The translations under genes were made by a program, and so were the position numbers. From Betaproteobacteria bacterium (GTDB taxonomy: Bacteria > Pseudomonadota > Gammaproteobacteria > Burkholderiales > SG8-41): 47,426 nt of DNA. The notes below the pieces were generated by a model. It was given only the letters and a program-made list of their open reading frames with translations. It ran no database searches and had not been told where the DNA came from. Each line of letters opens with the position of its first letter. Position 1 is the first letter of the stretch. The DNA lies in NCBI GenBank assembly GCA_021732605.1, contig JAKFUS010000007.1:1-47426 (forward strand), given 5' to 3'. This document shows, in pieces, positions 33,727 through 46,314 of this stretch.

Positions 33727-34188
33727 ATGGAAATCCAATCAGGCACTGCCGCGCCGGAATTTACCCTGGCCGCGCACAATTCCGAACAGAAGGTCTCTCT
33801 CGCCAGTTTCAAAGGGCGACCGGTAGTGGTCGCGTTCCTGCCGTTTGCCTTTACCGGGGGATGAACGAACCAGGTCAACGGGTTCCGTGCGAACTACGAA
33901 GAATTCAAGAAGCTGAACTGCGAAATCCTGCAACTCAGCGCTGATCCATTGCCGTCCCTCAAAGCCTGGTCCGACCATTTGGGTGGAGTGCCGTTTCCGC
34001 TGATGTCCGACTACTGGCCCCATGGCGCGGTCGGCAAAGCCTTCGGCATTTTCAACGAGGAGCGCGGCATGGACAAACGCGCAGCCTATGTGATCGACGC
34101 CAAGGGTGTGGTGCGTTACGCCAAGGTCTATCCGCAGGGCACAATACCGACCAGTGACGAATTGCTGGCCGAATTGCGTAAGCTCTGA
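33727..34188 (+). CDS. Selenocysteine-containing peroxiredoxin (in-frame UGA)
   Basis: A 153-residue AhpC/TSA-type peroxiredoxin if the UGA at 33862-33864 (codon 46) is read as selenocysteine. The N terminus PEFTLAAHN...VSLASFKGRPVVVAFLP leads to FAFTGG, then UGA, then TNQVNGFRANYEEFKKL. In the family the peroxidatic cysteine sits exactly at this codon. After the UGA the frame stays open and conserved (LQLSADPLPSLKAW, FPLMSDYWP, RAAYVIDAKGVVRY) to TAA-free codons and a TGA stop at 34188. CAGGAG precedes the ATG and a terminator follows. A small stem with an AGGUC loop starts four bases after the UGA and could be part of a SECIS. A nonsense mutation is the alternative, but two further genes in the window show the same pattern. 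Confidence 0.87.
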
Positions 34189-39478: not shown

Positions 39479-40012
39479 ATGTCATTGCAAATCTACGATC
39501 CAACCACTGAAGTGAAAGGCCGCACGATTGCCTATGCGGCGCGCCCAAAGTCGCTGAAAGGCCTGCGCATCGGCCTGGTCGACAACACCAAACACAATTC
39601 CGACCAGATCCTGCTGCGTGTCGCCGGCATTCTCGAACGTGAACACGGCGCGAAAACGCATGTCATCCGCAAAAAGAAAAGCTCCGGTGCGGCACCCAGC
39701 CCGGAGATGATCGCTGAATATAAAGCCAACTGCGATGTGGTCGTCGCAGGCGTCGGCGACTGAGGGTCATGCAGCTCGGGCAGTGTGCTCGACAGCATCG
39801 TATTTGAGCAGCAAGGAGTACCGTCGGCGTCGATCGTGACGCATGTGTTTATCGTGACGGGCAAGGCCATGGCGCGGACCTGGGGTGTGCCGGATTTCAA
39901 ATTCCTGGTGCTGCCGCATCCGATTGCCAACCTGACGCCGGAACAGATGGATCAGCGCGCGGCGGAGATTACGCCACAGGTTGTTGAGTTGTTGTTGAAG
40001 GGACAGCAGTAA
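39479..40012 (+). CDS. UGSC-motif selenoprotein (in-frame UGA)
   Basis: 177-residue protein if the UGA at 39761-39763 (codon 95) is read as selenocysteine. The sequence around it is VVAGVGD-U-GSCSSGSVLDS, the U-G-S-C motif that gives this family its name. The N-terminal half is SLKGLRIGLVDNTKHNSDQI, and the second half continues in frame with FEQQGVPSASIVTHVFI and WGVPDFKFLVLPHPIANL to TAA at 40012. GAAGGAG precedes the ATG. The UGSC family is a known selenoprotein group of unknown function; the neighbouring U and C suggest a redox selenenylsulfide. It lies between an unknown partner gene and a Bug receptor. Confidence 0.93.
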
Positions 40013-42892: not shown

Positions 42893-43204
42893 TCAGCTCT
42901 GGTCTTTGATTTCAGGCGCTTTTTCGGCCGGTGACGGCTGCGGTTCGGTGAGCCGTCCTGTGACGTATTTGTGCAGCACACTGGCAATCAGCGTCTGGTA
43001 AGGTACACCTTCCTGCATTGCTTTCACCTGAACATCTTGCAAGTCGCTGGATGACAGCCTGATGTTGACCCGTCGGTCTTTGACCGCAGTGGCGCGAGCG
43101 GCAGCCTTGAATTTTGCAAGCTCCGCTTTGGTGACGACCGACTTCAGTTGGCCTTTTTCATAGGCGCCGAGAATTTCTTTTTCGTAAGCGTCATTTTTCG
43201 GCAT
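42893..43204 (-). CDS. BrnA-like antitoxin
   Basis: 103-residue protein with a ribbon-helix-helix C-terminal part (DRRVNIRLSSSDLQDVQVKAMQEGVPYQTLI), the usual DNA-binding and dimerising unit of BrnA/CopG antitoxins. It overlaps the toxin gene by 14 bases. AAGGTG precedes the ATG at 43204. It should neutralise the toxin and repress the operon. Confidence 0.85.
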   Translation of the reverse strand: MPKNDAYEKEILGAYEKGQLKSVVTKAELAKFKAAARATAVKDRRVNIRLSSSDLQDVQVKAMQEGVPYQTLIASVLHKYVTGRLTEPQPSPAEKAPEIKDQS

Positions 43205-43484
43205 CGGGTTCACCTTGATTCAAATAAGCCTTGGTGGCTTTGCGGCTCGGGATGATTGTTTTTAGAAAAAAATGTGCTTGCTCATCAATAAACGGTACCA
43301 GGTACACATAGTTGTCTACGGCCACGACCAGAATCCGCTGCCGCGGGTATTTGGCCGGATTCGGATGGGCCAGGATGTCGAGCAAGCCATCAGACTCAAT
43401 GGCGACGACGATGGTTTCAAACGACACGCCTCGCGCAGCCGAGAGAGTTTCATTTTTCTCCGGATTCCACCGAAACGGCTTCAT
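43191..43484 (-). CDS. BrnT-like ribonuclease toxin
   Basis: 97-residue protein of the BrnT/RelE-like fold. The N terminus FRWNPEKNETLSAARGVSFE and the strand block RILVVAVDNYVYLVPFIDE are family-like, and the C-terminal IIPSRKATKAYL carries the basic residues expected of this RNase. BrnT toxins cleave mRNA to stop growth. It heads a three-gene operon with the antitoxin and the nuclease-like gene. Confidence 0.83.
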   Translation of the reverse strand: MKPFRWNPEKNETLSAARGVSFETIVVAIESDGLLDILAHPNPAKYPRQRILVVAVDNYVYLVPFIDEQAHFFLKTIIPSRKATKAYLNQGEPDAEK

Positions 43485-44266: not shown

Positions 44267-44968
44267 TTATTTCGCTCCCGCCTTTTCCAGTATGGCTGCC
44301 ATCTCCTTGTAGCCGCGCCCCTTGGCCAGCCTGAGCGGGGTGTTGCCGTTGCGGTCTGCCAGTTGCAGGTTGGCGCCGGCAGCGACCAGTGCCTGCAGCG
44401 TGGCGACATGGCGTGGACCGCCGTTGCCCAGCACGATGGATTCGACCAGCGCGGTCCAGTGCAGGTTGTTGATGTGATCGAGCGGCGCGCCGGCGGCGAT
44501 CAATTGTTTGACCACGCCGTGGTGGCCGAGGTGGGCGGCGGCGATCAATGCGGTGCCGTCGTAGCGGCTGGTGGTGAGTTTTGCGCTGGCGCCTGCGGCG
44601 AGCAGCGCACGCAGGGCATCTTCATTATTGGCGACTGATGCAATGGTGACTGCGTCGTAACGATCTTTTTCGAGCAGGCCGAGGTTCGCGCCGGCTTTCG
44701 CCAGTGCGCGGATGGCTTCGACTTTGCCGGAGTGGGTGGCGATATGCAGCGGCGTGCGGCCGTAGGGATCGCGGGCGTTGATGTCGGCATTCGCTGCAAC
44801 CAGGCGGTTGATTTCAGCGGCATCGCCGCGGTGTGCCGCGGCGTGCAGACCGCTGTAGCGCGCCACTTCAGCGGCGCCCGGGGCCACCTGAGCCGATGCC
44901 ATGGGCGCCAGCAGCATGATTCCACATACGGCAGCCCGCAGGGCGTATGAGCAGGACAAAATGCGCAT
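44267..44968 (-). CDS. Exported ankyrin-repeat protein
   Basis: 233-residue protein with a signal peptide ending about MASAQ and about five ankyrin repeats (GLHAAAHRGDAAEINRLVAA, GRTPLHIATHSGKVEAIRAL, and further copies to the end). Its ATG follows directly after the stop codon of the UGA-containing cupin gene (TGA then ATG), so translation is coupled. Export and ankyrin repeats suggest a periplasmic protein-binding role, possibly with the cupin as its partner. Confidence 0.88.
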   Translation of the reverse strand: MRILSCSYALRAAVCGIMLLAPMASAQVAPGAAEVARYSGLHAAAHRGDAAEINRLVAANADINARDPYGRTPLHIATHSGKVEAIRALAKAGANLGLLEKDRYDAVTIASVANNEDALRALLAAGASAKLTTSRYDGTALIAAAHLGHHGVVKQLIAAGAPLDHINNLHWTALVESIVLGNGGPRHVATLQALVAAGANLQLADRNGNTPLRLAKGRGYKEMAAILEKAGAK

Positions 44969-45292
44969 TCAGTCCACTATGAACAGTTTGGCGCCCACGC
45001 TCGTGTATGAGCGGTGCGGCTCGGCGTCATCAGCCACCTGGTAGCTCATGCCCGGCTTCAGTGTGAATTTTCGCCCATCCTTGAGTTCGGTGTGAAGTTC
45101 ACCCCCAATGCATAGAAGCACATGGCCTTTCACTCACCAGTGGTCTGCCAAATATCCCGGCGTGTACTCAACCATTCGAACGCGGATGTCACCAAAGGAT
45201 TGCGTGCACCAATACGCGATACCTGACTCGCCTTTGTGCTCTTGGCGTTTCATTTTTGACCAGTCAGTCGTGCCGAACGGGATATCTGACAT
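44969..45292 (-). CDS. Small cupin, probable selenoprotein (in-frame UGA)
   Basis: 107-residue single-domain cupin if the UGA at 45136-45134 (codon 53) is read as selenocysteine. The first part is MSDIPFGTTDWSKMKRQEHK, then GDIRVRMVEYTPGYLADHW, UGA, VKGHVLLCIGGELHTELKD and LKPGMSYQVADD to a TGA at 44971-44969. The frame and the cupin fold run straight across the UGA. In related small cupins I recall a conserved Cys beside this Asp-His-Trp, so U for C is expected chemistry. The downstream ankyrin gene begins immediately after the stop, so read-through would be coupled to it. A nonsense mutation would remove most of the cupin barrel. Confidence 0.8.
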
Positions 45293-45367
45293 CTTCGTTA
45301 TCGATTCACCATTGATAATTGATCCAAGTGCATGTGCCCGCGCTCAATCGGTTTTATCAAGATTTTG

Positions 45368-46189
45368 TCAGCGCTTCGCTGCCTGATAAAGCGGTATGAC
45401 CGTCGGCAGCAGCGCTTCAATCTGCTGGATGCGGCTGGTTTCCGCGGGGTGGGTACTGAGAAATTCCGGCGGGCGGCTGCCGCTCTGACCGGCCTTGAGC
45501 ATTTTCTGCCACAGCGTGACGCCGGCACGCGGGTCGTAACCGGCACGCGCCGAGAGTTCGAGACCGATGCGGTCGGCTTCGGATTCATCATTGCGGCTGA
45601 AGGTGGTGGCGATCAGTGCTTCGTAACCCGCATTGGCCAGGCCGGCAGCGCCGTCACCCAGGCCCAGCAGTGCGGCGCCGATGCCGATTGCGGTCTGCGC
45701 GGCAATGGCCTGCGACACCTGTTCGCGGGAATGTTCGCGCAGTGCATGTGCGATCTCGTGGCCCATCACCACTGCGATTTCGTCGTCGCTCAGGTTCAGG
45801 CGTTTGATCAGCCCGGTATAAAACATGATCTTGCCGCCGGGCATGCAGAAGGCATTGAGTTCGTCGCTGCTGATGGTATTGACTTCCCATTTCCAGCCGG
45901 GCGCGTCAGCGCGGAAGGCGCGGGTCTGCGGCGTAATGCGGCTGGCAATGGCGCGCACGCGGCTGGTCAGCCCCGGTTCGGTATTGAGCGTGCCCTTTTT
46001 CCTCGATTCGGCCTGCAGCTGGCTGTAGGCCTTGACCGCCATCTGGTCGAGTTCGGTCGAAGACACCAGCAGCAGTTGTTTGCGCTCGGCGCCGACCACG
46101 CCGCCGGAGGTGGTGGATTCGCAACTGGCGGTGGTGCCCACCGTGATGGCGGTGAGTGCAAGGGCGATCAGTTTGTACAAGGGGGCCAT
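45368..46189 (-). CDS. M48-family metallopeptidase
   Basis: 273-residue zinc protease. The zinc motif HEIAH is at 144-148 in VVMGHEIAHALREHSRE, and the third ligand Glu lies in NDESEADRIGLEL. An N-terminal signal ends near TTASCES, which may be lipidated. The STHPAETSRIQQIEALLP end is typical of the Ste24/BepA-like group that acts on envelope proteins. The ATG at 46189 has GGAG upstream. It lies 75 bases before the cupin gene on the same strand. Confidence 0.92.
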   Translation of the reverse strand: MAPLYKLIALALTAITVGTTASCESTTSGGVVGAERKQLLLVSSTELDQMAVKAYSQLQAESRKKGTLNTEPGLTSRVRAIASRITPQTRAFRADAPGWKWEVNTISSDELNAFCMPGGKIMFYTGLIKRLNLSDDEIAVVMGHEIAHALREHSREQVSQAIAAQTAIGIGAALLGLGDGAAGLANAGYEALIATTFSRNDESEADRIGLELSARAGYDPRAGVTLWQKMLKAGQSGSRPPEFLSTHPAETSRIQQIEALLPTVIPLYQAAKR

Positions 46190-46314
46190 GTCATTGCTCC
46201 GGTGCAGATGCTGTGAGCGGGATTTTACCGCGGCGGGAACAGTCATTTGTGACGGGGTGGGGCAATCTGCGTAGAATGCGCCCCTTCGTGCTTTTTCGTT
46301 ATTCGTAGACCCCC

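Follow-up and report, generated by a model that had tools for sequence, protein, structure and literature searches.

A cupin gene interrupted by an in-frame UGA

The window analyzed here, that is, the whole stretch of DNA under study, comprises 47,426 nucleotides of contig JAKFUS010000007.1 (assembly GCA_021732605.1) from a betaproteobacterium. It contains the following genes and features around a small cupin frame.

44267..44968, minus strand: ankyrin-repeat protein, downstream neighbour; its ATG at 44968 abuts the cupin stop
44969..45292, minus strand: DHCW-motif cupin, with the UGA read through; 107 residues and a stop, NF038084 match
45134..45136, minus strand: in-frame UGA, codon 53, at an invariant Cys column (Cys in 77/77 homologous copies read)
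45368..46246, minus strand: M48 metalloprotease, upstream neighbour

The cupin frame starts with an ATG at 45292, 75 bases after the end of the M48 gene, carries UGA as codon 53 and terminates at a second UGA at 44969-44971. Its minus-strand translation (45292-44969) reads MSDIPFG...YLADHW-UGA-VKGHVLLCIGGEL...LFIVD-stop. When C was written for the internal UGA, the product matched NF038084 (NCBIfam, DHCW motif cupin fold protein) and scored 179.1 bits where 70 are required (E 1.8e-53), protein residues 3-107 being aligned with model positions 2-106 of 106. A genome search with the same model, reading through stops, gave 172.2 bits for this cupin, and the match of the read-through product to Pfam Cupin_2 was below the cut-off (15 vs 27.2 bits). 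Because the NF038084 match spans residues 3-107, the two halves constitute one cupin and a frameshift is absent. These results bear out a previous sequence-only reading of the window, which had described a cupin interrupted by UGA at codon 53 alone, with cupin-like halves in an unshifted frame and with the next gene starting right after the final stop. Elsewhere on the minus strand, a BrnT-like protein (43191-43484) scored just under the Pfam cut-off (27.9 vs 34.5 bits), and a possible antitoxin frame was seen by eye after this gene.

Selenocysteine machinery and other UGA-containing genes

It had been proposed that the genome should be checked for selA, selB, selC and selD, and all four were found in the window's genome, so that a lack of selenocysteine (Sec) machinery no longer stands as an objection to recoding. 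SelA scored 571.6 bits, SelB 423.3 bits and selC, a tRNA-Sec with the anticodon UCA, 75.9 bits; these three are located on one contig. SelD scored 421.1 bits, and its own frame carries a UGA in the motif GGGUGCK. A search of the same genome for formate dehydrogenase (TIGR01553) gave sub-cut-off matches only, none of them with stops.

Two further genes with an in-frame UGA had been reported within 12 kb of the cupin, and both were recovered as follows.

33727..34188, plus strand: peroxiredoxin with a TxxU motif; UGA at 33862-33864
39479..40012, plus strand: UGSC family (seleno)protein; UGA at 39761-39763

They lie 11.3 kb and 5.4 kb from the cupin, respectively, and contain one internal UGA each. 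The UGSC family gene matched NF041046 (150.8 bits) and PF24696 (197.1 bits). The peroxiredoxin, with the motif AFTGGUTNQ, matched Pfam AhpC-TSA (115.8 bits), and all its NCBIfam matches were under their cut-offs. Table 1 of PMC9312934 includes both UGSC and Prx (TxxU) among its selenoprotein families. Judging from their families, their motifs and the place of the UGA within each motif, these two genes probably encode selenoproteins. The UGSC gene stands beside a TctC-type receptor gene and would serve well as a positive control for the insertion of Sec in this genome.

The UGA occupies an invariant cysteine column

Homologues of the cupin were collected by whole-genome searches with NF038084 in sets that overlap and that each include the window's genome; the model scored over its cut-off in 14/100 relatives, 59/399 genomes of the order, 13/74 of the family, 38/398 of the phylum and 6/369 of the class. 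The DNA was read for 77 full or near-full-length homologous copies from 74 genomes (47 + 25 + 5), partial copies and copies without a fetched locus standing outside this number. All 77 copies have Cys at the codon-53 column, and UGA occurs in the window copy alone; the Cys codon was seen as TGC or TGT in 71 of the 77, and the other six rows, which have RGH for KGH, were read from the translation. The impression that related small cupins have Cys at this position was therefore correct, and the proposed count of Cys versus UGA did not give the outcome that had been named as refuting Sec, homologues without Cys at this column.

Twenty columns, column 53 among them, are identical in all of 47 aligned homologues, and apart from the UGA for Cys the window cupin departs from none of them. 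Its identity with these homologues is 61-80% for 44 of the 47 and 54% at the lowest. Two changes in conserved columns are unusual: R29C, where 44/47 homologues have R, and E63G, where 35/47 have E and none (0/47) has G. At least 90% of the 48 alignment rows share Cys61. Variation within the pocket motif was seen elsewhere in the family: four copies from the same taxonomic family (L026, L029, L069 and L070) have G-Y-W-C for D-H-W-C, so that the first pocket His is replaced by Tyr and the Cys is kept, and a further DHCW cupin (L028) has D-H-G-C.

A competing explanation of the UGA is that the cupin is a young pseudogene, in which the TGC or TGT codon of a recently acquired Cys cupin became TGA by nonsense mutation or by an assembly or sequencing error, leaving a fragment of at most 52 residues. 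We regard this as a serious possibility, at somewhat less than even odds. R29C and E63G are in its favour, as relaxed selection would also yield changes of this kind in the sequence. Against it, the frame and its length are otherwise undamaged, and the stop sits on the very codon where Sec would make most sense. If codon 53 was TGC, 48 single-base changes in the cupin gene give a stop (13 of them TGA), and one of the 48 falls at codon 53, mutation bias being unweighted in this count. In addition, no in-frame stop was found in the other over-cut-off NF038084 matches of the relatives, order, family, phylum and class sets; two sub-cut-off fragments contain one, a TGA in genome G200 and a TAA in genome G890. 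The position of the stop, together with the stop-free homologues over the cut-off, favours recoding.

Search for a SECIS element

The sequence-only reading had also suggested looking for a SECIS fold downstream of the UGA, and this search lent the proposal no support. The stretch concerned is the following.

45092..45133, minus strand: the 42 bases that follow the UGA, the expected place of a SECIS; only weak hairpins

Folding of the single strand after the cupin UGA was no better than that of shuffled sequences (z -0.68 and -0.90), and the 45-base folding energy of the cupin ranked 21 of 48 among the cupin homologues. We then coded the bSECIS rules as given in the legend to Fig. 2 of PMC13188914 (a loop of 3-9, no fewer than 4 pairs in the upper stem, G in the first two positions of the loop, a spacing of 16-37 and an energy of -7.5 or lower). 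The energies obtained were -8.4 kcal/mol for the cupin, -13.5 for UGSC, -14.5 for SelD and -5.5 for the peroxiredoxin. The same rules were applied to 72 of the 77 Cys homologues, the five class-set copies being left out; 54 of the 72 also passed, and 45 of the 72 at least equalled the cupin's energy. Given that so many Cys homologues pass, the cupin's own pass means little. With a stricter G[G/U] loop and a spacing of 14-37, the values were -3.2 for the cupin, -4.5 for the peroxiredoxin, -12.2 for UGSC and -12.5 for SelD, and 65/72 Cys homologues reached -3.2 or lower. Rfam gave no gathering match in the window; a lax threshold produced one chance-level match on the other strand (E 1.4).

We therefore lean towards the view that the cupin has no convincing SECIS, which is a point in favour of the gene being broken. 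However, the hairpin downstream of the peroxiredoxin UGA fails the bSECIS energy rule, so that the result for the cupin neither confirms nor excludes an element. According to the parts of PMC13188914, PMC12013277 and PMC9312934 that deal with this point, some known selenoprotein genes depart from the SECIS model. Some SECIS elements in the present genome may likewise be weak or atypical, as the peroxiredoxin hairpin illustrates.

Search for other UGA forms

We also looked for a second UGA-bearing copy. The exact pattern D-H-W-UGA-x-[AAR or AGR]-G-H had seven matches in 84,980 species genomes, none of them cupin-like in frame by eye, in a scan that may omit the window's own and very near genomes and that misses copies with a divergent motif. 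A single motif match on a viral contig was rejected as chance, because this phage-like contig has a long frame that overlaps the match in a different reading frame. Thus, neither the exact-motif scan nor the over-cut-off family matches from the relatives, genus, order, family, phylum and class contained a UGA-bearing homologue elsewhere, and the empty scan adds to the case for a broken gene. Some new selenoproteins have been accepted without UGA homologues elsewhere, as stated in a portion of PMC12013277. SelB was over its cut-off in 34 of the 74 Cys-cupin genomes, in which the Cys is kept (35/75 with the window's genome included), and this counts against recoding. This indicates that the capacity for Sec is common among carriers of the cupin and that the UGA form is rare.

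Origin of the gene

Among 21 genomes of the genus, the cupin gene was found in the window's own and was not found in the other 20; among the genus genomes with a completeness of 90% or more and a contamination of 5% or less, it occurred in 1/14. No cupin match was detected around the M48-like genes of the genus relatives in the 20 loci fetched. The corresponding segment is as follows.

44969..45367, minus strand: segment that four relatives (L114, L116, L120 and L122) lack between M48 and ankyrin

In these four relatives the two genes adjoin. In another relative (L124) a partial ankyrin match follows just after M48, and in a further one (L123) an ankyrin match lies approximately 1.1 kb on; the remaining 14 relative loci had no ankyrin match near M48 in the stretch examined. 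The base composition of the cupin also differs from that of its surroundings. Its GC content is 53.9% (63.6% at third positions), compared with 63.2 and 65.5% in its two neighbours (76.4 and 75.5% at third positions) and 57.5-62.3% in eight other genes of the window, so that it is lower than all ten genes measured. In the cupin tree, its placement was nowhere firm and the highest identity was 80%; its end branch measures 0.18, where the median is 0.12, and is not among the long branches listed, a point on the side of recoding. Long end branches (0.96 and 0.79) were observed for two other DHCW cupins (L027 and L028). No conserved neighbourhood of DHCW cupins was found; the widest neighbour cluster occurs in 7/78 loci and gives no clue to a substrate.

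This looks like a fairly recent gain of a single gene. The insertion between two genes that adjoin in four relatives, the finding of the cupin in one genome of the genus and the low GC content can be counted in favour of a broken gene, but a recent gain fits either a Cys gene that later turned to Sec or a Cys gene that later broke.

Recoding or loss of function

Decay is favoured by the missing convincing SECIS, by the lack of any further UGA form, by what looks like a recent insertion and by the changes R29C and E63G. The earlier claim that recoding is likelier than mutation gains from the Sec machinery, the invariant Cys column and the two other genes with an in-frame UGA and gains nothing from the SECIS search, and it survives as the more likely reading: in our judgement, which was not computed, the probability that UGA 53 of this DHCW-family cupin is recoded as Sec is roughly 0.58. 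A third explanation, in which near-cognate suppression or decoding as another amino acid lets a little full-length protein be made with no selenium in it, would agree with a frame that stays open and a downstream ATG directly at its stop, but it is highly improbable, given that neighbouring genes such as M48 end on UGA, that the genome has a tRNA-Sec and that chance seldom puts such a codon at an invariant Cys.

Fold and putative metal site

If the UGA is recoded, it would be decoded by SelB and the tRNA-Sec to give the full 107-residue protein, in which the invariant pocket Cys of the DHCW cupins would have become Sec. We modelled the protein with AlphaFold2 from the alignment of 48 rows, writing Cys in place of Sec. 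The model, with a mean pLDDT of 96.5, consists mainly of strands. Its best fold match in the PDB was 8awp_A, an engineered TM1459 variant (E 2.7e-6, TM-score 0.78, 14% identity), and a PDB sequence search with the cupin gave weak matches only. The model thus suggests a single-domain, TM1459-like cupin barrel. TM1459 is a Mn cupin of Thermotoga maritima that, as described in sections of PMC5031596, has H52, H54, H58 and H92 as its Mn ligands and uses organic hydroperoxide and oxygen to cleave alkenes. The candidate ligands in the window cupin are as follows.

45140..45142, minus strand: His51 codon, equivalent to TM1459 H52 by spacing; nearly invariant in 48 rows
45122..45124, minus strand: His57 codon, equivalent to TM1459 H58 by spacing; invariant in 48 rows
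45014..45016, minus strand: His93 codon, taken as TM1459 H92; invariant in 48 rows

The spacing H51-x-U53-x3-H57 is exactly that of H52-x-H54-x3-H58 in TM1459, and the distance from H57 to H93 is two residues longer than that from H58 to H92; in a weak match, His93 was aligned with a His of ectoine synthase. On the basis of the fold, the spacing and cupin motifs, residue 53 probably replaces TM1459 H54. The idea that the UGA lies in a metal pocket beside a metal-binding His is upheld to this extent, its support coming from the fold and the ligand spacing.

We propose that H51, U53, H57 and H93 may bind a metal of the Mn or Fe type, with Sec in the place of TM1459 H54. Such a metal site would probably include a single chalcogen ligand, which would be Cys in the DHCW family and Sec in the window cupin, and would react with peroxide or oxygen. 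In this chemistry the Sec might serve as a ligand of the metal or as a redox group next to it. From its position on the strand, Cys61 is a possible resolving thiol, and Cys29 might be considered as a partner of Sec53. The complete picture, in which three His and a Sec hold the catalytic metal, the protein represents the first cupin-fold selenoprotein family, the Cys-to-Sec change is recent and took place in a single-gene acquisition, and the SECIS is weak or atypical, is offered tentatively, and we would not bet on all its parts holding at once.

Comparison with known selenoproteins and cupins

The main texts of two reviews on prokaryotic selenoproteins (PMC13188914 and PMC9312934) and of a prediction paper from 2025 (PMC12013277) nowhere use the term cupin, and NF038084 and DHCW are absent from the main text of PMC13188914. 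Likewise, Table 1 of PMC9312934, with 87 selenoprotein families, names no cupin. Literature that mentions cupins together with selenoproteins was, as far as titles and the beginnings of abstracts tell, not about such a protein, and DHCW had unrelated uses among the matches listed. If the cupin carries Sec, the selenoprotein family that it represents would be new, and within its established cupin family it would be a novel variant. According to a passage in PMC13188914, the fold of most selenoproteins characterised so far is thioredoxin-like; Sec at the metal site of a cupin would bring in another fold and, possibly, a metal-selenolate centre of a new type. The protein is small and should express easily. 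A Cys-to-Sec change without a strong SECIS would also bear on how little SECIS is needed.

The UGSC protein and the peroxiredoxin belong to recognised selenoprotein families and are not cupins, although they share the cupin's window. The NCBIfam name of NF038084 has no selenoprotein mark, whereas that of the UGSC family carries one. The DHCW family and the window cupin have the pocket motif D-H-W-[C/U] in common, and they differ in that the 77 family copies read have Cys and the window cupin has UGA. TM1459 has four His ligands; a DHCW cupin has three His in place by spacing, and the other position is Cys or UGA. Moreover, TM1459 binds Mn, whereas metal binding by the DHCW cupin is suggested by this analogy. 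The formate dehydrogenase alpha subunit, in which Sec is bound directly to the catalytic Mo or W as described in part of PMC13188914, differs from the DHCW cupin in both fold and cofactor; nevertheless, it has a Sec-metal bond like the one that we infer as a candidate for the cupin.
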